From a virus: DNA of 22,456 nt. The stretch lies in IMG/VR virus record IMGVR_UViG_3300030085_000532, positions 1-22,456 of that record. One strand, 5' to 3'. Shown piece by piece: positions 7,120-22,456 of this stretch; position 1 is the stretch's first letter; each line of letters begins with the position of its first letter. Both the position numbers and the translations under genes were made by a program. The notes below the pieces were generated by a model. That model was not told the origin of the DNA. It made no database searches and worked only from the letters and a program-made list of their open reading frames with translations.

Positions 7120-8553
7120 ATGAATTACAAATTTAAAACAAAACCATATAAGCATCAATTAGATGCATTACAAGACTCTTGGGACAAAGAAAACTTTGCC
7201 TATTTCATGGAGATGGGTACGGGTAAATCTAAAGTTCTTTTAGATAATGCTGCTGTTCTTTATGATAAAGGTAAAATAAATGGATTATTAATTATTGCAC
7301 CAAAAGGTGTATATAAAAACTGGTACGATTCAGAGATACCTACACACTTACCAAATCATATATTTAAAAAAACTGTTCTTTGGAAAACATCTGATAAGTC
7401 ACAAAAACAAAAAAACATTTTAAATACTTTGTTTGAAACAGGGACTGAACTTCACATTTTATTAATGAATGTAGAGGCTTTTTCATCTGCTGATGGACCT
7501 GCATTTGCATATAAATTTTTATCGGCTCACAATGCTATGATAGCAATTGATGAATCTACTACAATAAAAACACCTACAACTAAAAGAACTAAAAACATTA
7601 TTGCGCTGAGAGAGATGGCTAAGTACAGGAGAATTTTAACAGGTTCTCCTGTAACCAAATCACCTCTTGATTTATTTAGTCAATGTGAATTTCTTGATCC
7701 TTGGCTCTTAGGTCATCAATCTTATTGGACATTCAAGGCTCGTTATGCAGTGACCAGAAAGATCCAGGTACAAGGTAGACAAGTAGAAATAGTTGTTGGT
7801 TATAGAAATCTTGGTGAATTATCAGAAAAGATACAACCTTTTTCTAAAAGAGTTTTAAAAGATGATTGTCTAGATTTACCTAAAAAAACTTTTATGAGAC
7901 ATGTTGTTGAATTGACTAAAGAACAAAAAAGAGTTTACAAACAAATGAAAGAAGAAGCCATTGCTTATTTAGATGGTAAAGTATTATCTTCTGCAACTGT
8001 TATGACTCAATTGATGAGACTCCACCAAATAACTTGTGGTCACTTTACAGCTGACGATGACACAATTAAAGATTTGCCATGTAATAGAATGACTGAGTTA
8101 ATGGATATACTAGATAATGTACACAATAAAGCAGTTATCTGGTCACACTATACTCATGATGTAAAAAGAATTATTGAAGAAATAAAAAATAAATATGGTG
8201 AAGATTCTGTTGTAGATTATTTTGGTGAAACAGATCAAGATCAAAGGTCAATTAATATAAAGAAATTTCAAAATGATGACAAGTGTAGATTTTTTGTAGG
8301 AACCACTCACACGGGCGGCTATGGTATCACATTGACTGCTGCAAGTACAATGATTTATTTTTCAAATGGTTATGATTTAGAGAAGAGACAACAATCAGAA
8401 GCAAGGATAGATCGTATTGGTCAAGAAAAACCCATGACCTATATTGACATTATTGCAGAAGATACTGTTGACGATAGAATTGTCAAAGCTCTTCGTAGCA
8501 AAGTAAACATTGCCAACAAGATCATGGGTGAAGATTATAAAGAATGGATTTAA
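7120..8553 (+). CDS. SNF2-type DEAD/H helicase-like ATPase
   Basis: 477-residue superfamily 2 ATPase of the SNF2 type. Walker A is EMGTGKSK (31-38), Walker B is AIDEST (143-148) in place of DEAH, motif III LTGSP (174-178), motif V THTGGYGITLTAAS in the C-terminal lobe, and motif VI QSEARIDRIGQ (425-435), the QxxxRxxRxGQ signature of SNF2 proteins. Such enzymes translocate on double-stranded DNA and can remodel forks or displace proteins; phage members are often set among replication genes. It is the only plus-strand gene in the window, divergent from 6661-7053 and overlapping the Hsp20 gene end-to-end by 4 bases. Short length means a core motor with no added domains. Exact substrate unknown. 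Confidence 0.9.
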   Translation: MNYKFKTKPYKHQLDALQDSWDKENFAYFMEMGTGKSKVLLDNAAVLYDKGKINGLLIIAPKGVYKNWYDSEIPTHLPNHIFKKTVLWKTSDKSQKQKNILNTLFETGTELHILLMNVEAFSSADGPAFAYKFLSAHNAMIAIDESTTIKTPTTKRTKNIIALREMAKYRRILTGSPVTKSPLDLFSQCEFLDPWLLGHQSYWTFKARYAVTRKIQVQGRQVEIVVGYRNLGELSEKIQPFSKRVLKDDCLDLPKKTFMRHVVELTKEQKRVYKQMKEEAIAYLDGKVLSSATVMTQLMRLHQITCGHFTADDDTIKDLPCNRMTELMDILDNVHNKAVIWSHYTHDVKRIIEEIKNKYGEDSVVDYFGETDQDQRSINIKKFQNDDKCRFFVGTTHTGGYGITLTAASTMIYFSNGYDLEKRQQSEARIDRIGQEKPMTYIDIIAEDTVDDRIVKALRSKVNIANKIMGEDYKEWI

Positions 8554-8951
8554 GAAATTTTTATTTCTTTTGCCTTCGATTCTCTAATGTTCTTTAAACT
8601 AATAAGTAGCATACCATCTTCAAACTTAGCTTTTTCTACTTCTAAGTGATCAGATATCTGCATCCTTTTTTTAAAGTATCTTTTTGCAATACCTTTAGAC
8701 ACATAGTTTTTATTTGGATCATCTTTAGATCCTCCTTCTACGGTTAAGATATTGTCCTTTACACTAACTTTTATGCTGTCTTTTTTATAGCCAGCTAAAG
8801 CCATTTCTAAAGTGTAGTTTTCATCTTTTGATTTAACTACATCATAGTGTGGATAAGGAGCGCCGTTGTAGCATAGATGTTCTAAGTTATGAAATATGCT
8901 ATCAAAACCGACACTGAAGTTTAGGAAATCTTTTAGTCTTTCGTGATACAT
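8550..8951 (-). CDS. Hsp20 / small heat-shock protein
   Basis: ATP-independent holdase chaperone of the alpha-crystallin family, 133 residues. The crystallin domain spans about 35-122, with PHYDVVKSKDENYTLEMALAGYKKDSIKVSV and the late strand signature FEDGMLLISL (110-119). A C-terminal I-K-I (130-132) provides the I-x-I motif used in oligomer assembly. Small Hsp genes occur in marine cyanophages and other marine phages, where a virion-assembly role is suspected. The start at 8951 has a near-perfect Shine-Dalgarno (AAAGGAGG, five bases off the ATG). It converges on the SNF2-type gene with overlapping stop codons. The product family is clear. Confidence 0.93.
   Translation of the reverse strand: MYHERLKDFLNFSVGFDSIFHNLEHLCYNGAPYPHYDVVKSKDENYTLEMALAGYKKDSIKVSVKDNILTVEGGSKDDPNKNYVSKGIAKRYFKKRMQISDHLEVEKAKFEDGMLLISLKNIRESKAKEIKIS
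8552..8569. terminator. Weak AT-rich stem-loop over two convergent stop codons
   Basis: AAGAAAT (8552-8558), TTTT loop, ATTTCTT (8563-8569), then TT: a perfect 7-bp inverted repeat lying across the converging gene ends. Only one G-C pair makes it a weak terminator if it is one; it is the sole candidate between the opposing units. Confidence 0.25.
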
Positions 8952-9286: not shown

Positions 9287-12200
9287 TTATATTAAACCCC
9301 TTTGTCTTAATCTGATTGTTTTCTCTTCGTCAGATAATAAAGCATTCTCTACTGGTGTCAATCCTGTAGCCATAATGTTTCCTGACACTTGAGGCTGTAA
9401 TACTTGAGCGTTTGGCATTGGTTGTATTGGTAAAGGTGGTGTTTGTACTTCTGGCAATAAATAATCATCAATATTTAATCCCATAGAAAAAACTTCACCT
9501 CCTTCAGATCGTAATAATCTTTCATCTATATTAAATAAAAATCGTTCATTTAATTTTATTCTTTTCATATCATTAACCATTCTAAGTATTTGTGGTTTTG
9601 CTATGTTGTATGGATTCGCTCCACCTAAATTACGTGCAATTTCTGCAAATTTTTCTTCAATGTCTGCAGATGGTAAGTAAGGATCAAAATTCGCATTCGT
9701 TAAATTTATAAAATTTTTTTCACTAATTTGTCTTTCTTTAAATTGTCTCCCTAAAACATTTTTTGAAACTCCTAGTATTTCAGCAGCATTTATATCTTTA
9801 TACATTTCTTGTTGAACTCCAAATCTAGCATTATTCGATGCTGCAAATCTTTTTATAATATCATTAGGATCAACTGGTCCACCTTTTAATAATCCAAATG
9901 CACCTCCAGTAAATTCTCTTCTTGAATCTCTAATACCTCTTTGATAATTAGAAATTTTAAAACCCATTGATCTTAATGGATCAACTTTAATTGGTCTAAG
10001 ACCCATAAATCCTGCAATCTCTGGTCCTACATCAAGTGTCTCTCCACGTTTAGTTGGAGTTTGTGTAGCTGCTTGTAATAATCTTCCATACTGTTTGTAT
10101 GATGGTGCTAATGCATTTCCTAAATGCATAAATCTAATTGCAGCTTTATCTCCTACAGATGTTTGTTCTGTGTATAATCTTCTTCCATCTTTTGTTACAC
10201 CACCTCTAACAGTTAAATCTGCAGCAGCTTCTGTCCAAATAGATTCTGAAATAAATGGATTCATTATTTCAGCTCCTGCTTCATCTACACCTTTAACAAA
10301 ACTTGCTAATAATTGTTCATCAGTTTGTTGACCTTCTTGAATACTGTTCATTACAGTTCTAAGTGGTCTAGCAATTACATCGTATGCGTTGCTGTGACTA
10401 AAATCTATGTATCTTAATTCACCATCATCATCTTTAATTGGAATTAAAGTAGAATTTTTTGACCACTCAGGAACAAATCTTCTTAGTGCATCTAGTTCTT
10501 CTTTTGATACGTCATATATTGCAGCTGCACCTTCTGTTAAAGCAATTGGTATACCCGTTGTAAATGTTGCCATACCTAATAATCTTTTAAATCCTGTGCC
10601 ATAAGTTCCTTTTGCTATTGCATCATTAGCAACTCTTTGACCTGTAGCAGCATCAACAACAGTTAAACCTAAATTACTACCAAGAGTTTTTTTAGAGTGC
10701 CTCATCTCTTTTAAACCTTGACCTACGATATTAGTTGTAGTTCGAATCATCTCAGATGGAAATGACATAAAGTTACCAATTGGTAATAGTCTCGCAGTTC
10801 TAACTGCAGAACCAACAAAGTCATAATTAGGTACAGTGTTCTTAACTATATTAGCGGCCTCTGTTTTTAATGCAAAGTCATCTAAGAACTCATCGTAAGT
10901 TCCTTTGAATCCATTTTGTCTTGCTCTGTTAAATTTTATATTAAGTTCTGATTCAGGTAAATTAATTACATTTCTATTTACTGGTCTACCGTTTGCTCTG
11001 TAGTTTTTTAATCTTTTTAATTCAACCACATAGTTTGTAATTTTAAATGTATCATCTTCTGCAACATACTTACCTTGAAAAAAATCTTTTAATTTTTTCA
11101 TTTTTTTCATAAATGGACTTACGATTGAATCTAAGTTAGCAACTTGTTCACCAAATCTAACATCTGTTAGTAGTGCTTTTAAATCTCCAATTTGAACTTG
11201 TGAATTTACAACACCCAGTTCTAATAATTCTCTATAAGCTTCTTGTGCTCTTGCACTATTTGGTCCAAGTTTTGTTAGACCTGATACGTCAATACCTTCT
11301 CTAAAAGCTTTAGCAACTACAGCTGGGTTTTCAAATAAAATACCATTAGCTCCAGAAAAACCAAAAGCACTTATCATATTACGCAAGTGTGTTGGTACAG
11401 ATAAAACTGTTTTAGCTAACTGAGAAGCTCCTTTTGGTAATAGTAATAAATTTCTATACATCCAACTAACCGCAGCCTCAGCGCCTTCTTTACCCTCACC
11501 TCTTACAAAACCTTGAAGACCTCCTGCAATATTGTTTGCGTTTCTAATTGCATCAGCTATTTCTTTTGTCGTAAAACTATTTTGTAATGGATTAATAACT
11601 TTACCTGCTCCAGGTAAGTCTTTTACTATTTCATCCATTGGCACTAATTCTATTCCTGTTGTTCTTGATCGTAATGCTTCTTCACCTGCTTCTTTACTTG
11701 CCCAAAAAAATCCTCTACCGCCTGCCTCTTGTACTTCTTTATTTTTAGCTGCAACTGCAGTTAAGTAATTTGTAGTTCTTGCAACAGCAGATAAATTAGT
11801 CATTGCATTAAATATTGAATATCTTGGATCTTGTATTTCTCCCAATAATTCTCTTAATTCTTTTGGTAATAAATTAGTATCATCAATAACTTGCTTAATA
11901 AATTCTCCTCCTGGCTTACCTTCTACTGTTTGTTTTATATATTTATTAAGATCTAATGCTTTTGGGTTTTTTAATTTTTTTACTGAGTTTAATAAGCTTT
12001 TAACTTGTATTACAGCTTCTCTTTCTAATTGACTTGGTTTACGAGCTAATGTTGGATTTTCATTTACAATCATTCTTTTAAAAAAATTAATTGCACCTTC
12101 CTCTGCTTCTGCAGTTGGTTTGTATCTACCAAATAATTTTAACAAACCTTTGTTTTGATCTTCAAAAAGCCTGTAAGTTCCACCAATCCAATTAGCTGTT

Positions 12201-13384
12201 CTGTCTTGTAATATTTTTTGTAATTCTTTTTGTCCTTTTTTAAATTCAACCCCATCTGTATTTTTATTTAAAATATCTATTAATCTAACAAATTCTTCTC
12301 TCGCATTATTAATACCACCGACAATAGCTTGTCTTCTTTCTGCAGGTAAATTTGTTTTGTTCATTAATTTTAACGTTTCATCAATTGCATCTTTGTTTAA
12401 AGGTTTTCTTAAATCTCCTTCAAATAAAGATTTATTTAGTAAAGAAAGAAATTTATCTCTTTCAGCTACGTTTGCTCTGCCAAAAAATCTTTCTGCTTCT
12501 GGGTAAATAGCATCTATTTCTCTTGTAAGATTATCTACAATTTCTTTTGCTCTATTTGTATCTCTTGCAATTAAAGCTTGTTTTGTTTTTTCTGCACCAA
12601 ATAATTCTTCTGTCAATCCACCTCTAGGACTAAATGGAGCTCTAATATATTTATCTAAAAATCTAGCAAATTGACTATCACTATAAGCTAATTCTTTTCC
12701 TCTTTGCGCAAGTAACTTTGCACTTTTACCAACACCATAAACTACAGGTGTAATTAATAAAGATTCAGATCCAAATTTTAATCTATTAGCTAATTTTCTT
12801 GCAGCATCTTCTCGACCAAATCCTTCTTCTCTATCCAACTGAGTTGGACCTCCTTCAAACATATCCCCAAAAGTTCCAATCTTTTCAACATCTGCAACAA
12901 AAAATTCTCCTGTTGCACCACCCATTAAGCCTACTCCGAATCTAGGATATTTTGCCTTATCATTTAAATCTCTGGTTTTATTTAATGCATCTCTTAATGC
13001 AGTTCTGTCTTTTGTTTTTCTAAAGTCAGCAAAAGCATTTGCACGTTTTGCTTTTAAAGTCTTGGCGGTTATTCTTCTTGCAGCTTGATTAGCTAATTTA
13101 AAACCTGCCGTGCCTGGTACACCCACTTGAATGATTGCTTCTGTTAATTTACCTACTGCTCTGTCTTGTGCAGCGTCTTCAAATATATTTATTCTATCAA
13201 AAAATTGTTCAACATCTGCTGCAGTGTTGGTGTCAAAACCTAAATCAATTAATTCAGCTGTTAATGAAAATACTCCTTCAGGTACTTTAATAATACCCGA
13301 TGCTATACCTGATGCAAATGATGAATACCAAGATCTGTCACTATCTCTTTCGGCTTCATTAAGTGGTAGAAATTCTTCTGCCAT
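9287..13384 (-). CDS. Very large presumed internal virion / DNA-ejection protein, 1365 aa
   Basis: By far the largest gene (4.1 kb). The N-terminus (SWYSSFASGIASGIIKVPEG) is followed by long charged helical stretches (roughly 230-480). A more hydrophobic central part has LLLLPKGASQLAKTVLSVPTHLRN (near 645-670), and another section contains LLPIGNFMSFPSEMIRTTTN. The C-terminal third resembles domains of large multi-domain phage proteins (WSKNSTLIPIKDDDGELRYIDFSH), and the last 40 residues are Pro/Gln-rich. No lysozyme or transglycosylase signature is evident. As the final and largest gene of the virion block, after gp10-like and low-complexity genes, it corresponds in position to P22 gp16/gp20 or T7 gp16 ejection proteins. 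That is inference from order and size. TAGGAGAT lies just before the ATG. Confidence 0.75.
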   Translation of the reverse strand: MAEEFLPLNEAERDSDRSWYSSFASGIASGIIKVPEGVFSLTAELIDLGFDTNTAADVEQFFDRINIFEDAAQDRAVGKLTEAIIQVGVPGTAGFKLANQAARRITAKTLKAKRANAFADFRKTKDRTALRDALNKTRDLNDKAKYPRFGVGLMGGATGEFFVADVEKIGTFGDMFEGGPTQLDREEGFGREDAARKLANRLKFGSESLLITPVVYGVGKSAKLLAQRGKELAYSDSQFARFLDKYIRAPFSPRGGLTEELFGAEKTKQALIARDTNRAKEIVDNLTREIDAIYPEAERFFGRANVAERDKFLSLLNKSLFEGDLRKPLNKDAIDETLKLMNKTNLPAERRQAIVGGINNAREEFVRLIDILNKNTDGVEFKKGQKELQKILQDRTANWIGGTYRLFEDQNKGLLKLFGRYKPTAEAEEGAINFFKRMIVNENPTLARKPSQLEREAVIQVKSLLNSVKKLKNPKALDLNKYIKQTVEGKPGGEFIKQVIDDTNLLPKELRELLGEIQDPRYSIFNAMTNLSAVARTTNYLTAVAAKNKEVQEAGGRGFFWASKEAGEEALRSRTTGIELVPMDEIVKDLPGAGKVINPLQNSFTTKEIADAIRNANNIAGGLQGFVRGEGKEGAEAAVSWMYRNLLLLPKGASQLAKTVLSVPTHLRNMISAFGFSGANGILFENPAVVAKAFREGIDVSGLTKLGPNSARAQEAYRELLELGVVNSQVQIGDLKALLTDVRFGEQVANLDSIVSPFMKKMKKLKDFFQGKYVAEDDTFKITNYVVELKRLKNYRANGRPVNRNVINLPESELNIKFNRARQNGFKGTYDEFLDDFALKTEAANIVKNTVPNYDFVGSAVRTARLLPIGNFMSFPSEMIRTTTNIVGQGLKEMRHSKKTLGSNLGLTVVDAATGQRVANDAIAKGTYGTGFKRLLGMATFTTGIPIALTEGAAAIYDVSKEELDALRRFVPEWSKNSTLIPIKDDDGELRYIDFSHSNAYDVIARPLRTVMNSIQEGQQTDEQLLASFVKGVDEAGAEIMNPFISESIWTEAAADLTVRGGVTKDGRRLYTEQTSVGDKAAIRFMHLGNALAPSYKQYGRLLQAATQTPTKRGETLDVGPEIAGFMGLRPIKVDPLRSMGFKISNYQRGIRDSRREFTGGAFGLLKGGPVDPNDIIKRFAASNNARFGVQQEMYKDINAAEILGVSKNVLGRQFKERQISEKNFINLTNANFDPYLPSADIEEKFAEIARNLGGANPYNIAKPQILRMVNDMKRIKLNERFLFNIDERLLRSEGGEVFSMGLNIDDYLLPEVQTPPLPIQPMPNAQVLQPQVSGNIMATGLTPVENALLSDEEKTIRLRQRGLI

Positions 13385-17079: not shown

Positions 17080-17822
17080 TAAAAATCTTGTCTTCCTCTA
17101 CCTGATTTAGATTCAAATGCACCTTCTCTACCTGAAGTGCTAAAACCACCTCCAGGACCAGTAAAGCCTTTTTCTTTTGCACTTCTATAAACATCTGGAT
17201 TACGTTCTTGTGCTCTTCTAATCGTGACAGTTTCAGCTGCAGCTTTATTAGCAGCATCTATTTGATCTTGAATTATTTTTTGTTTTGCAACATTTTGTCT
17301 GTCAAAAAAACTTTTTGCCATATATGGATTTTTAAATAATGCTTTAGGACTTACCATATCAAATAAACCTGGATACTTTGGTTGATCTCTTTCAAATCCA
17401 AGTTTTGAACTTATAGCATCTAATATACCACCATAAATAGTGTTGCCACCTAAATTTTGAATATTTAATCCTGATATGTCTTGATATAAACCTGTATTTA
17501 AATTTTTATAACCAGTGACAATGTTACCATTTATATTAAATTGTTTAGCGGTACTTAAATCTAAGTTACCAAAATCTCCTCCACCTCTAGGTCCATCTCC
17601 ACCCCCTGTTCGTTCTGGATATAATAATGCAAGTTGTTCAGCAGTTAGTCCTTGTGGAGTTGCAACTGATTCTTCTTCCACAACAGGTGTTGTGACGCTT
17701 GATGCCTGAGGCAATGAAAAAATACCAGAGATATCTGGTAAGTCCTGTGCTAAATATTGTGTTGCTAAATCTGCTAAAGTTGCAGGTGTACTTCTTCTTG
17801 CAAATCTACTAAATATTGACAT
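17079..17822 (-). CDS. Virion-module protein of unknown function, 247 aa
   Basis: The N-terminus is basic (SIFSRFARRSTP), then a Ser/Pro/Val linker and a GGGDGPRGGGDFG run near 73-86. A middle region (NINGNIVTGYKNLNTGLYQDISGLNIQNLGG) is rich in Asn and Gly, like beta-helical or fibrous proteins. A helical stretch (FFDRQNVAKQKIIQDQIDAANKAAAE) follows, then a Gly/Ser/Arg-rich disordered tail. No enzyme motif. The start overlaps the gp10-like gene stop (TAATG) and the end overlaps the 59-residue gene. In P22 the genes after gp10 are gp26 (tail needle) and gp14; this might be a counterpart, but the sequence does not prove it. Confidence 0.7.
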   Translation of the reverse strand: MSIFSRFARRSTPATLADLATQYLAQDLPDISGIFSLPQASSVTTPVVEEESVATPQGLTAEQLALLYPERTGGGDGPRGGGDFGNLDLSTAKQFNINGNIVTGYKNLNTGLYQDISGLNIQNLGGNTIYGGILDAISSKLGFERDQPKYPGLFDMVSPKALFKNPYMAKSFFDRQNVAKQKIIQDQIDAANKAAAETVTIRRAQERNPDVYRSAKEKGFTGPGGGFSTSGREGAFESKSGRGRQDF

Positions 17823-19999
17823 TATCTTCTTCCGTCGGGTTGTGTATCTAATCTAAACGTACCAAGTTTCCAACTTTGAGATGCGCCTGTATTAGCTATT
17901 TTTAAAGACACGGCTCTAGCTCTTGCACGTGTATCTACTTTATCAGTAGAACTAGTAATTGTAAAGGGTCCAAGAGGAGAGCTAGCTTGTGTGCTATTTG
18001 GATAATTTTTTAATTGTAAAGTTACTTGTGTATTTCCTGTTTGAGATAAAAAATCAGGCACAAATCTTCTAATTTTCATTATGTGTTCACCATCGCCTTT
18101 AAAATTTGCAATACCTGTAGACTGACCAAAAGCACTTTTCTGTTGTGTAATATCAAAATCTCCAGACTCAATATTAGATGTAACAGCGTTAACTCCTGTA
18201 GCTAGTGCTTCATCTGTTCCTTTTTCATGTTCAAAATAAGTTGTACATCCATCTGTATTACCTACTACATCATATGAACTGTTACTGTCTGGATCATAAA
18301 AAGTTGCATGTGGTAAACCAAATACAGATGAATCTTTCCATGTTCCTCTTGCTAAAGTTCCTGTAGTCCATACAGGTCTTTGTGCTGTTGAATCCATATA
18401 ATTATATGTTACACATCTATTAATAACAGTTGAATTTTCTGTACAATAAAACCAAGTTATTTCACCAAATAAATTATTTAGTCCAACGTTAATCAACTGT
18501 GATGCAGTTGTATTTAAATCATTATAAACAAAGTCTTCTACTAAACAAATCATTGTTTCAAGATTACCAGAGTATTTAAAAAAACCATTTTCTGAAAACC
18601 AATAAGCAGCACCATCAACTTCTAAAGCTGCATTCTGTCCTATTAATCCACAGTTAGTTCCCACTTGTTGAAAACCAAATACAAATGGTTGACCAATAAA
18701 ACGCATGGTAAATAATGATGTATCAGTCCAAACATAAATTGCATCTCTACCTCTAACCGCACCTACAATTTTTGATCCATCAGCTAATCTTTGAAAACCA
18801 GCGCTATTATCTACTTTATCTTCATAAACAGTAATTTCATCTCTATTAGAAAATCTAATAAACATTTCATCTTGTGTTGTTGGATCTCCAATAGTTGTTT
18901 CTGTTCCAAAAAATACTAAGTGTCTATCAGGTGTAGATACCAACATATCTCTTGACGCTGTTGGTGCACCATTAATAATAGTTGCTCTTGTTCTAACTGC
19001 ATTTGTTGCATTTGAGTCCCATTCAAATACTTGTGCATTATGTATTAATGCAATAATTTTATCACCAAAATTATCAATACTCCACAAACCTGGATCAACA
19101 ACTAAGTCACCTGATGCAGCTTCACCCCATGCAATATAATCAGAACTATTTGTAACAGCAACACCTGCATTATGTGTTGCAGCTGTTGTATTTCTAACCC
19201 CTCTTGTTACACCTGTTAAAACACTAGAAGATATACCTGTATAAGATATTTCTTCTGTGCCTATTTGTACAAAGTTTGTACCTGATGTTGGAAATTGTGA
19301 TGCATCATTTAATTGTATACCTGTTGTTTGTGATGCGTTAATAGAGTTTGTTAAACTTGTAACTGCTTCACCTGATACTGTACCACCATACTGTGCAAGA
19401 CCCCAACCGAAACCAGGTAACTGTTCTGCAGGACCAACTGGATAATAATGTTGAACTCTAATACCACCTGATGAACTTGCACCCGATCCAGTCTCAGCCG
19501 ATGGCATTGTAATAGTGATACTTGTTGAATTTGGAACAGATGTGACCATAAATGTTTTATCATTAAAATCAGACGCAGTAAAATTTGAATTTGTAATTGT
19601 AGAAAAATTATCTAAAAGAACTATGTCTTTTGCTGATATATTGTGAGCTCCACTAAAAGCTATTGTAACAACTGCTGAACCATTTGTAGTGGTAAAACAA
19701 CTAGATAAAGTTGTAGTAAGTTTAATGGGATGTATGTCATAAAATACTCCACCTGTATAAGCATATAAAATTCTGTTAGTCCCTATGATTGCATATTTGT
19801 TACCAGATTTATTAACTATATGATGTAGAGCTCTTGCAGCTCCTGTCATTTTATCTTCACCTAACTGTGACCAACCACCTATTTTTTCAGGTGTACCATA
19901 TCTAAATCTTACATTATCACCATCAACCCATTGTCCTTCAGCTGTGGTTTCTGTAATCTGTTTATTGAATCCAGGTTGAAAACCTATCTTTTGTAACAT
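17822..19999 (-). CDS. P22 gp10-like DNA-stabilisation / tail-hub protein
   Basis: 725 residues. The start (LQKIGFQPGFNKQITETTAEGQWVDGDNVRFRYGTPEKIGGWSQL) is the diagnostic opening of the phage stabilisation protein family of P22 gp10, which closes the portal after packaging and joins the tail. The repeated strand pattern with W/F-rich turns (IIGTNRILYAY, LWSIDNFGDKIIALIHNAQVFEWD, MLVSTPDRHLVFFG, DAIYVWTDTSLFTMRF, AAYWFSENGFFKYSG) fits a beta-propeller-like fold. Two insertions interrupt it: about 100-180, Ser/Thr-rich (SAVVTIAFSGAHNISAKDIVLL), and about 207-287 with IGTEEISYTG and LTGVTRGV, a module found in many tail proteins. Start at 19999 with GGAG upstream. The family call is strong; it shows a short-tailed phage. 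Confidence 0.85.
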   Translation of the reverse strand: MLQKIGFQPGFNKQITETTAEGQWVDGDNVRFRYGTPEKIGGWSQLGEDKMTGAARALHHIVNKSGNKYAIIGTNRILYAYTGGVFYDIHPIKLTTTLSSCFTTTNGSAVVTIAFSGAHNISAKDIVLLDNFSTITNSNFTASDFNDKTFMVTSVPNSTSITITMPSAETGSGASSSGGIRVQHYYPVGPAEQLPGFGWGLAQYGGTVSGEAVTSLTNSINASQTTGIQLNDASQFPTSGTNFVQIGTEEISYTGISSSVLTGVTRGVRNTTAATHNAGVAVTNSSDYIAWGEAASGDLVVDPGLWSIDNFGDKIIALIHNAQVFEWDSNATNAVRTRATIINGAPTASRDMLVSTPDRHLVFFGTETTIGDPTTQDEMFIRFSNRDEITVYEDKVDNSAGFQRLADGSKIVGAVRGRDAIYVWTDTSLFTMRFIGQPFVFGFQQVGTNCGLIGQNAALEVDGAAYWFSENGFFKYSGNLETMICLVEDFVYNDLNTTASQLINVGLNNLFGEITWFYCTENSTVINRCVTYNYMDSTAQRPVWTTGTLARGTWKDSSVFGLPHATFYDPDSNSSYDVVGNTDGCTTYFEHEKGTDEALATGVNAVTSNIESGDFDITQQKSAFGQSTGIANFKGDGEHIMKIRRFVPDFLSQTGNTQVTLQLKNYPNSTQASSPLGPFTITSSTDKVDTRARARAVSLKIANTGASQSWKLGTFRLDTQPDGRR

Positions 20000-20016: not shown

Positions 20017-20655
20017 CTATTTTACATAAGATGGTAGACCTAGCTTTGGTCTTCCATCAAACATATTTTTATTAGCAAATGGGCCATTTACATGATTATA
20101 ATGTAGAAATACTTGGCCGCAAATGTTTCCTTCAAATGGCTCTCGCCAATGTTCAAGTTCGCATCCACTATATACCAACATATCTCCTACATCAAGCACG
20201 ACTTTTGTGCCTTTAGGTGCATTGGGCTTATGTATGTTCTTATACTCGTCTATGACGTTGTCAGACCCCGTACCGTCGATAAATATAGGCCAGGGATCTC
20301 CACCAAGGTTTAGAGTCGTTGATATCTCACAGCTTGGCCTGTCTTTGTGTCGTCTTAATATATCTCCTTTTTTATATGCTCTAGAATAAGAATAAGTAGG
20401 TATTAAATCTAGTCCTGTTTCTTTCTTCATTACAGGTAACATTTTCATTAATAATGTTTCCATTACAAAATCAGCATAACAAGAGTATGTATTAGGCACT
20501 TGTTTATCGGTCCATGTTCCAAGTATAGGAGACTGTGAGTTTAGATTGTGTTTATACATAAACTCCACAGCATCTCTTTTAAGTAAAAAGTAATTAAATA
20601 TAAAATTAGCTAATTCAAAAGATAAAGCTTTTTTGATAACATGATATTTAAACAT
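20017..20655 (-). CDS. 2OG-Fe(II) oxygenase 4 (HKD...HWR type)
   Basis: 212 residues. A 2-oxoglutarate/Fe(II)-dependent hydroxylase core is visible: H103-x-D105 in RRHKDRP, then ISTTLNLGG, LDVGDMLVYSG and H169 in ELEHWREPF, ending with QVFLHYNH. These match the iron-binding triad of the jelly-roll fold; a basic residue near H169 (R171) could bind 2-oxoglutarate. It is the last of four such genes, overlapping the previous one by 8 bases, with AAAGGA before the ATG, and is followed after 17 bases by the gp10-like gene. GC is 44% over 20101-20340, which encodes the catalytic part, but 28% over 20401-20640. Substrate unknown: protein side chain, peptide or small molecule. Confidence 0.85.
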   Translation of the reverse strand: MFKYHVIKKALSFELANFIFNYFLLKRDAVEFMYKHNLNSQSPILGTWTDKQVPNTYSCYADFVMETLLMKMLPVMKKETGLDLIPTYSYSRAYKKGDILRRHKDRPSCEISTTLNLGGDPWPIFIDGTGSDNVIDEYKNIHKPNAPKGTKVVLDVGDMLVYSGCELEHWREPFEGNICGQVFLHYNHVNGPFANKNMFDGRPKLGLPSYVK

Positions 20656-21235
20656 TAAATCCTTTCTGTAAAAAATTAAATGATACTGATATCCTTATAT
20701 CATCACTCTCGTTTGGTTCAACACAATGCCAAAGCCATGCTGGAAATATAATTATTCTACCCTCTAACGGATCTACACGAACCTCTCTCCATAAATGTGA
20801 AGGTGGTGTCCCTTCTTTTCTTCTTGGCATAACCATATGTGCTGCAGCTCTTGGTTCATTAAATACTATTTGTCCAGAATTTTTAGGTGCTTTAATATAA
20901 TACACGCCACTAAAATGAGAATTTGGATGTAAGTGTGGTCTGTTATATCCGCCTGGCGGATTTATGTTGGCCCACATATTTCCTATAACAGGTTCGTTAT
21001 CTAACCATTCTTCTTGAAATACTTCACTCTGCATTTTAAATAATTCATCAACTAAAGGTTTAAATACTGGTATTTCATGCATGTTAGTTGTGCTATGCCA
21101 ACCATTCATATTAGTTCTTTTAACTCCTTTGTCTTTATCAGCCCAAGCAAGAACTTTTCTTTCAAAAAGTTTATTGTCTAGATTAACATCTTTAGCGTAT
21201 ATAATAGTTGGAAAGTATGCAGCTTTAATCATCAT
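20648..21235 (-). CDS. 2OG-Fe(II) oxygenase 3 (TIGR02466 / PF13759 type)
   Basis: 195 residues from ATG 21235 (ATGATG; the second ATG at 21232 is equally possible). It carries the family pattern YNRPHLHPNSHFSGVYYIKAP (H101, H103), PRAA...M, FPAWLWHCVEPNESDDIRISVSFNFL (H170, R181). In this family the first His pair, the distal His and the Arg bind Fe(II) and 2-oxoglutarate. The ATG overlaps the stop of the preceding oxygenase gene (ATGA) and its end overlaps the next oxygenase gene by 8 bases, so the four appear to be made together. A start at 21259 is in frame but would overlap further. Substrate unknown; such proteins are frequent in marine phages and in cyanobacterial and alphaproteobacterial genomes. 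Confidence 0.88.
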   Translation of the reverse strand: MMIKAAYFPTIIYAKDVNLDNKLFERKVLAWADKDKGVKRTNMNGWHSTTNMHEIPVFKPLVDELFKMQSEVFQEEWLDNEPVIGNMWANINPPGGYNRPHLHPNSHFSGVYYIKAPKNSGQIVFNEPRAAAHMVMPRRKEGTPPSHLWREVRVDPLEGRIIIFPAWLWHCVEPNESDDIRISVSFNFLQKGFNV

Positions 21236-21816
21236 TTGAATGGTGTGCCTCCAAACCACATGACTAAAGATTTTCTGTTACCACGAATTACGGGTTTAAC
21301 TCTGTGTCTAATAAATGATGCAAAAAATACTGCATGTCCTTGTTTTATTTTTGCAACTTTACCTTCAGCCATTAATTCTAAATCACCGCCTTCAAATTCA
21401 TTTTCAGGAGATAATAAACAAGTCATAGATATTTTTCTTACAGGTGGTTCATGTTGGCAATTTACATCATTATCTACATGCCACTCATAAAAACCACCTT
21501 CTGGATATTCTGTGTATTGTGCCATTTCTGTAATTGTCATTCCATCAAAACCAAAATGATTACCGTTTGTAGTTTTCATAATTTTTTCAATATCTTTATA
21601 CATCTCATGCATTTTTTTAAATGGTATCCAGCTTATATGTGAGGTTCTGGTTTTGGTGTCTACTACTCCACCTTTAGTACCTTTAGCATTTCCAACATAC
21701 GCGTCTTGTTTAGGTTCGCTTCTACCTGCTTCAATAATCATCTGACATTGTTTAGGTGTAAAGATTGGTGTAGTTGTTTCAACTATGTAAGATTTCCATC
21801 GTGGTTCTGTTATCAT
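21232..21816 (-). CDS. 2OG-Fe(II) oxygenase 2 (prolyl-hydroxylase/PKHD-like)
   Basis: 194 residues with the most canonical site of the four: H113-x-D115 in FYEWHVDND, H171 in FIRHRVKPV and R181 in GNRKSLVMWF, ten residues after H171, where the 2-oxoglutarate carboxylate normally binds. FEGGDLEL and KQGHAVFFASF mark the double-stranded beta-helix strands. It resembles prolyl 4-hydroxylase/PKHD-type enzymes acting on peptide side chains. The N-terminal part (PIFTPKQCQMIIEAGRSE) is the typical lead-in helix. It starts one base after the upstream oxygenase stop and ends overlapping the next. A virion or host-protein hydroxylation role is a guess from location. Confidence 0.9.
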   Translation of the reverse strand: MITEPRWKSYIVETTTPIFTPKQCQMIIEAGRSEPKQDAYVGNAKGTKGGVVDTKTRTSHISWIPFKKMHEMYKDIEKIMKTTNGNHFGFDGMTITEMAQYTEYPEGGFYEWHVDNDVNCQHEPPVRKISMTCLLSPENEFEGGDLELMAEGKVAKIKQGHAVFFASFIRHRVKPVIRGNRKSLVMWFGGTPFK

Positions 21817-21817
21817 A

Positions 21818-22396
21818 TTAATATCCGTATTCTACCCATCCAGTTATTATATATTTATCATTCGATAAAGGTGGGTTGCCTCTATGAACGTGTGTAAACT
21901 GTGATGGCCAAACTAATAGTGTATTCTTTTCTGGTTTAAACCTACACTTTTGATATAAAAATTCTGTTTCTCCACCTTCAGCTACATCATTAAGATAAAC
22001 CATAAAAGCTAGTATTCTATTTCTTGCTTTCATAGCTGCATTTTCACAATGCCAAAAATGATAACCCTCACCTACTTTAGTTTTTTGTATCTTAACTTCT
22101 AATATATTATGTGTAGCTAATTTTTTTAAATAAGAATATTTTTGAACATACAGAGGATACACCTCTTTAAAAAACATATCTATAAAAGGTTTGTTATTAT
22201 AAGTCATTGCAACATTAGTATCTCTTATAGTATCTATTGCATTATCAGATACTAACATTTCATCTTCTCTTCTTGGATACACTGCACCCTGTTGTTCACA
22301 TTTATTAAAATAATTTATGTAATCATCTATCATTTCATTTGGCATAAAGTTTTTAAATATACCTATATGATTGTCTATGTAATATTGTTTATCCAT
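21818..22396 (-). CDS. 2OG-Fe(II) oxygenase 1 with HxE iron motif
   Basis: 192 residues. The jelly-roll core shows YHFWHCENA (H116-x-E118), ILAFMVYLNDVAEGGETEFLYQ, and FTHVHRGNPPLSNDKYIITGW, where H171 is the likely distal ligand and K181 the likely 2-oxoglutarate-binding basic residue. Glu in place of Asp in the first motif is a variant seen in some 2OG oxygenases. The GGETEF strand is the typical end of the first sheet. It is the first of four oxygenase genes; its ATG shares a base with the stop of the partial upstream gene (TAATG). Substrate unknown. Family call strong, activity unproven. Confidence 0.85.
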   Translation of the reverse strand: MDKQYYIDNHIGIFKNFMPNEMIDDYINYFNKCEQQGAVYPRREDEMLVSDNAIDTIRDTNVAMTYNNKPFIDMFFKEVYPLYVQKYSYLKKLATHNILEVKIQKTKVGEGYHFWHCENAAMKARNRILAFMVYLNDVAEGGETEFLYQKCRFKPEKNTLLVWPSQFTHVHRGNPPLSNDKYIITGWVEYGY

Positions 22397-22456
22397 TATG
22401 ATGCACCTCTATTTTTTATTGGATCAAATTGTACATCACAGTTTGCAGCAAGAGTT
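22396..22456 (-). CDS. C-terminal end of an unidentified gene, cut by window edge
   Basis: The last 19 residues (TLAANCDVQFDPIKNRGAS) and TAA stop of a gene entering from the right. The stop shares its A with the ATG of the first oxygenase gene (TAATG at 22398-22394), so it belongs to the same transcription unit. Too little is visible to name it; a head or structural gene would fit the block that follows. Confidence 0.6.
   Translation of the reverse strand, partial: TLAANCDVQFDPIKNRGAS

Follow-up and report, generated by a model that had tools for sequence, protein, structure and literature searches.

A conserved, coupled row of five 2OG-Fe(II) oxygenase genes beside a gp10-like structural gene in a putative HTVC023P-like podovirus

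Clusters of 2OG-Fe(II) oxygenase genes are already known from pelagiphages. Eight non-orthologous oxygenases of this type were described in HTVC023P-type pelagiphages, where they lie near but not adjacent to each other and in varying order (PMC9599517, 2022). A run of five is already visible in the cultured phage HTVC008M, and 24 2OG-Fe(II) oxygenase genes have been published for the 229-kb cyanophage S-SCSM1 (PMC9602691). The statement in our first-pass annotation that single such genes are common in marine phages thus understates what had been published.

Here we analysed a stretch of 22,456 nucleotides (the window), positions 1 to 22,456 of IMG/VR record IMGVR_UViG_3300030085_000532. Its gp10-like gene shares 38-46% identity with the homologues in HTVC023P, HTVC027P and 023Pt_psg01, and its primase 45% identity with that of HTVC027P. 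Judging from sequence similarity, the window phage is probably a SAR11-type, HTVC023P-like podovirus. The end of the window carries, on the minus strand, a row of five oxygenase genes in the order E-A-B-C-D, and the record, which is that of an incomplete virus, ends inside E. Gene A (21818-22396) encodes a PF13640 2OG-Fe(II) oxygenase of 192 aa with the motif HxE...H...K and is an optional member of the array. It is followed by B (21232-21816), a PF13640 oxygenase of 194 aa with HxD...H...R that is PiuC/PKHD-like, and by C (20648-21235), a PF13759/TIGR02466 oxygenase with HxH...H...R and the most variable member, of 195 aa, or 194 aa if started at the second ATG (21232). The last is D (20017-20655), of 212 aa, a predicted phage-type 2OG-Fe(II) oxygenase of phrog_2954 with HKD...H, mislabelled 'ferrochelatase'. 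The gp10-like virion structural (tail/stabilisation) gene (17822-19999, minus strand; phrog_3287, 5.7e-105) comes directly after the array. A and B are separated by one base, B and C overlap in ATGA, C and D overlap by eight bases, and 17 bases separate D from the gp10-like gene.

The ORFs and the Pfam and PHROG matches agree with the first-pass annotation, which had described four end-to-end oxygenases with these junctions before the gp10-like gene. A to D are indeed intact, but the count of four missed gene E (22396-22456, minus strand), a fifth 2OG-Fe(II) oxygenase, of the PF13759 type, truncated by the window end. The last 61 bases of the window, from the start codon of A, encode the gene end TLAANCDVQFDPIKNRGAS*, and the stop codon of E and the start codon of A have one base in common. 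When the record of the window itself was searched with E of the related contig L101, residues 201-219 of that protein aligned to window positions 22399-22455 with 84% identity (E 2.3e-6). It is because of this match that we count five members; full-length homologues of E in L006, L101 and other related contigs have 216-250 aa. A scan of the window revealed no minus-strand terminator-like site within the array, and this, together with the coupled junctions, agrees with the earlier proposal of a single unit, the anatomy being that of co-transcribed genes. The promoter scan of the window was uninformative, with fewer sites than in shuffles.

This arrangement is similar to that of HTVC023P (gp65-67) and 023Pt_psg01 in phage type, in the presence of B-, C- and D-like families, in coupling and in the nearby gp10-like gene; counting its 'endonuclease V', 023Pt_psg01 has four consecutive oxygenases. 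It differs from the published pelagiphage clusters (PMC9599517) by five adjacent genes in fixed order, by the E and A families, by an optional sulfotransferase and by kelch-like neighbours. HTVC008M (gp072-gp068) also has five consecutive coupled oxygenases that end in D, with an 8-base overlap, by tail/neck genes. Unlike the window phage, it is a T4-like myovirus, its order is B-like, C/X-like (X is introduced below), C-like, A-like and D, and its array lies on the strand opposite to the structural genes. Mosig possesses a similar array plus further genes. S-SCSM1 likewise has an expanded set of PF13640 and PF13759 oxygenases that share little identity with one another, whereas this set is not presented as one fixed-order operon in the available part of its description (PMC9602691). 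In the literature examined, we found neither the fixed order nor the regular presence of E and A, no sulfotransferase or kelch-like genes next to the array, and no correction of the D label as given below.

Profile searches of A to D, as suggested with the first-pass annotation, placed A (2.6e-13) and B (2.4e-15) in PF13640 and C (5.3e-29) in PF13759; D matched phrog_2954 only, with no match in Pfam. Gene A also matches phrog_61 (8.9e-46) and, at the profile level, the bacterial prolyl 4-hydroxylase structures 3itq/5hv0 (7e-7). Gene B matches 3dkq and PiuC structures (2.6e-7 to 5e-7); with 55.2 bits it falls under the cut-off of 143 of the NCBIfam equivalog for the PiuC/YbiX PKHD-type hydroxylase and would at most resemble this type in its working. 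Gene C is well above the curated cut-offs of PF13759 (101 versus 27 bits) and TIGR02466 (143.4 versus 62.5), and E of L101 exceeds that of PF13759 (34.9 versus 27) without attaining that of TIGR02466. The oxygenase fold of A, B and E is assigned by profile alone, that of C and D by predicted model. The AlphaFold model of C (pLDDT 81) matches 3bvc/2rg4 and prolyl 4-hydroxylases, and the fold matches of C and D to prolyl 4-hydroxylases and their relatives reach probability 1.00, with E-values down to 3e-13 (C) and 1e-7 (D); the Pseudomonas putida enzyme ranks third for C and first for D. The fold matches to bacterial prolyl 4-hydroxylases and the like are at 11-16% identity. The array proteins are thus like bacterial prolyl 4-hydroxylase (4j25/4iw3, 5hv0) and PiuC (9qn0, 3dkq) in predicted fold and Fe-ligand motif, and unlike them at this level of identity and in not attaining equivalog cut-offs.

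The core residues named earlier for A to D are all present, and alignments of all complete homologues show them to be invariant: H116/E118/H171 and K181 in 134 sequences of A, H113/D115/H171 and R181 in 190 of B, H100/H102/H169 and R180 in 186 of C (numbered from the second ATG), and H103/D105/H169 in 145 of D. In E, H117/H119/H187 and R199/R200 are invariant in 180 sequences, residue 187 being ambiguous in one. C, E and X carry HxH...H in place of HxD/E...H, and HxH is common to the solved PF13759-like protein 3bvc; the second His would be a candidate Fe ligand. By sequence, A to E are members of the 2OG-Fe(II) oxygenase superfamily with predicted intact Fe-ligand motifs. The idea that every Fe/2OG site is intact stands for the Fe ligands. 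The predicted basic residues that would bind the 2OG carboxylate are K181 in A, R181 in B, R180 in C and R199/R200 in E, but D has none at the canonical position, ten residues after the distal His; the invariant R171 and R92 are candidates for its 2OG anchor.

The label of D deserves separate discussion. Gene D matches phrog_2954, labelled 'ferrochelatase', at 1.2e-47, and it was reasoned from the same label that oxygenases and ferrochelatases are partner genes, the latter, which are D homologues, being counted separately (PMC9599517). That D is a ferrochelatase, with the task of supplying or handling the iron of the oxygenases next to it, would fit this partner-AMG reasoning, the labels of phrog_2954 and phrog_3531 and several GenBank names. 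We consider it hardly credible. D has no Pfam match at E<=1 and hence none to PF00762 (HemH), and the 'ferrochelatases' of 023Pt_psg01, HTVC008M, S-RIM32 and Syn30 do not match PF00762 either. In a fold search with the AlphaFold model of D, whose mean pLDDT is 79, P. putida prolyl 4-hydroxylase came first (E 1.2e-7); 2OG-dependent oxygenases and related proteins make up the 50 best PDB matches listed, which include no chelatase. The HxD...H motif is invariant, and A and B, too, have matches in phrog_3531, another family with the 'ferrochelatase' label. The profile, fold and motif results together lead us to reject a ferrochelatase. The fold matches have modest TM-scores (about 0.5-0.6), and confidence is low for residues 103-107, the modelled loop that contains HKD, so the fold assignment is firm whereas the predicted geometry of the site is not; a sequence search of D against the PDB gave a chance match only. 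The 'ferrochelatases' of HTVC023P, HTVC033P, 023Pt_psg01, HTVC008M, Mosig, S-RIM32 and Syn30 are D homologues that retain the HxD and HWR motifs.

Similar problems affect other families. 2OG-Fe(II) oxygenases are hidden behind the labels of phrog_274 ('DNA endonuclease V'), phrog_2297, phrog_2954 and phrog_3531, which include 'DNA endonuclease' and 'ferrochelatase', and phrog_3531 and phrog_274 also match A, B or C. GenBank records repeat these wrong labels, and the ferrochelatase label is relied on by at least two papers; the labels look like annotation-transfer errors. For phrog_274, DNA endonuclease V was rejected as an identity since the S-RIM32 member exceeds the Pfam cut-off for PF13640. 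If D is an oxygenase, the supposed link to iron or heme falls, which bears on the partner-gene proposal (PMC9599517) and on the reported seasonal enrichment of 'ferrochelatase (phrog2954)' (PMC11561400).

2OG oxygenases of other families modify or repair DNA or nucleotides. That the array does the same might be suggested by the relatives labelled 'DNA endonuclease V', and we regard it as very unlikely, as the S-RIM32 label is wrong, no AlkB or TET/JBP family scored over its cut-off for the array proteins, and the genes are positioned among tail genes. Cellular genomes offer little guidance: only five loci with D were found in genome contigs, with B- or C-like genes near four of them. As these loci are few and one (L233, NZMJ01000114.1) looks like a phage contig, there is no cellular function of D to borrow. 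L233, binned as Maricaulis sp. IN14, has E-B-C-D in the phage order and is probably phage DNA in a MAG.

The array is not peculiar to the window. IMG/VR loci were retrieved with B, A and D as probes, and all counts are therefore conditional on at least one of these genes. Loci from the three separate probes have the same order, kelch-like (K) - U - [S] - E - [A] - B - C - [X] - D - gp10-like, where brackets mark optional genes. It recurs in more than 100 contigs, which disposes of an order unique to one contig, named beforehand as evidence against a joint system, and of an assembly artefact. Complete E, B, C and D occur together in at least 97 distinct loci. There are five oxygenases in a row in 86 loci and six in nine, the shorter runs including contigs cut by their ends. 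The junctions are stable: A to B is +1 base in 130/130 loci, E to A is -1 in 126/130, and D to gp10 is +17 in 80/122. Where A is missing, E and B overlap instead (-4 in 41/55 loci). Because the junctions are stable and a new overlap is present where A is missing, we conclude that translational coupling is maintained whichever optional genes are present.

The optional gene S encodes a PF13469 sulfotransferase and is found between U and E in 66 loci with coupling kept. An example is L101:4567-5361; its phage relatives are few (cyanophages S-SKS1 and S-SRM01, and marine single-cell records). X is an optional sixth oxygenase-like protein of 165-166 aa between C and D in about a dozen loci (for example L047:7159-7659, with HxH...H); it has the highest dN/dS, 0.39, from few pairs. 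Kelch-like genes with WNGTNWTEVNDLNTGR-type repeats stand two or three in tandem upstream of the array (L101:562-3846, L012:1231-4046). They probably encode tail fibres, with weak similarity to Kelch_1, and K is a putative virion protein; K had no match among phage records, for which low-complexity filtering is a possible cause.

Comparison of the families agrees with the earlier view that the genes are not simple recent duplicates. No significant profile match between families was found with these narrow profiles, beyond a weak C-terminal match of C and X; this rules out recent tandem duplication and speaks against recent duplication only. Median dN/dS values (Nei-Gojobori) are 0.075 for A, 0.11 for E, 0.14 for B, 0.14 for D, 0.22 for S, 0.28 for gp10 and 0.33 for C; the pairs are non-independent and dS is near saturation, so that the ranking weighs more than the values. 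Purifying selection acts more strongly on most array genes than on the gp10-like gene. Many alleles of C share less than 75% identity, and D is far more uniform. The presence of A, X and S and the type of C allele vary largely independently, with little association, and this argues against one obligatory sequence of steps. Distances of E and B are strongly correlated (Mantel r 0.91), which shared ancestry alone could explain. The joint successive pathway that the first-pass annotation had proposed is so far unsupported, given that A, X and the sulfotransferase are optional, C alleles reassort and D occurs alone in Syn30. Individually useful enzymes fit the reassortment facts at least as well.

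The strongest rival to the function proposed below starts from the same facts. The oxygenases could be auxiliary enzymes that are unrelated and independent of one another, brought together in an island that tolerates cargo; each would have its own, possibly metabolic, target, and shared expression and a permissive insertion site, not a common task, would account for the row. The little association among A, S, X and C alleles and the sulfotransferase or glycosyltransferase genes that also occur in the island point in this direction, as does the gathering of many such genes by pelagiphage and cyanophage genomes, with 24 in S-SCSM1 (PMC9602691). Against it, E, B, C and D hardly vary in presence and order even where the sequences diverge, the junctions remain coupled, and C-like genes and D are also together in the arrays of unrelated myoviruses. 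We consider such an island possible but doubtful.

The reading that we favour, tentatively, is that the array encodes protein hydroxylases that act in parallel, their substrates being chiefly proteins of the virion or tail. On this view an HTVC023P-like podovirus would express, late in infection and beside its tail genes, a modular operon with translational coupling. Its five small oxygenases would each need Fe(II), O2 and 2-oxoglutarate and would hydroxylate the side chains of late-made proteins. The likeliest targets would be the virion or tail proteins encoded next door, which the optional sulfotransferase may decorate further. Most likely the enzymes would work side by side, at different sites or on different targets, and not as the steps of an obligatory series.

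This protein-hydroxylation reading is based on the position of the array in several phages, on protein-hydroxylase-like folds and on the optional sulfotransferase. The array is beside tail/neck genes on the same strand in HTVC023P, 023Pt_psg01 and Mosig, and follows a glycine-rich repeat protein in HTVC033P. The closest solved relatives have protein or peptide hydroxylase folds (prolyl 4-hydroxylase, PHD2, PiuC), and fast turnover of C alleles is expected if the target varies. On the other side, the array of HTVC027P and HTVC008M is adjacent to tail/neck genes but on the opposite strand, so that late co-transcription is not universal. A D homologue stands alone near replication genes in the T4-like cyanophage Syn30 and B homologues overlap a DNA helicase gene in several cyanophages, so that proximity to tail genes is not obligatory. 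The prolyl-hydroxylase-like fold matches also include the small-molecule enzymes HygX, SnoK and KanJ, and the literature, with the terms tried, yielded no report of hydroxylated phage virion proteins. A more specific version is tempting but improbable: the array, the optional sulfotransferase and the kelch-like repeat proteins would form a dedicated virion-decoration system, with hydroxylases that act at different sites of receptor-binding tail proteins, later sulfation of part of the hydroxyls, and swaps of C alleles or optional modules that alter the surface seen by the host.

Other targets can be envisaged. The enzymes could tailor small molecules or surface glycans or lipids, or, by consuming 2-oxoglutarate, alter the nitrogen metabolism of the host, an idea put forward for cyanophages (PMC9602691). 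This published proposal, the antibiotic-tailoring oxygenases among the fold matches, the nearby sulfotransferase and the glycosyltransferase genes near the array in cultured relatives would agree with such roles; five divergent and strongly constrained active sites would not be needed for a 2-oxoglutarate sink, and the operon has no biosynthetic gene set for tailoring. We find these roles unlikely. Modification of host proteins, such as translation factors, is suggested by the top structural neighbours, which are prolyl 4-hydroxylases (4j25, 4iw3), that of P. putida having been solved with EF-Tu (4iw3). Fold similarity at 11-16% identity tells little about the target, however, and a late position is late for host takeover; to us a host-protein target seems slightly less probable still.

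Ocean viromes commonly contain phages with this array, which occupies about 3 kb of genomes near 60 kb. With such common carriers and such a share of the genome, its function probably matters to the infection of SAR11-type bacteria. As HTVC023P, HTVC027P and HTVC008M are cultured, this function is directly testable.

Other features of the window may be mentioned. The region of gene C (20648-21235) is a site of allele swapping within a fixed operon. A minus-strand ORF of 1365 aa (9287-13384) has no PHROG match at 1e-3 and is likely a large late virion protein. A lone plus-strand helicase gene (7120-8553), surrounded by genes of the minus strand, overlaps an Hsp20-like gene (8550-8951) at the end of the latter.
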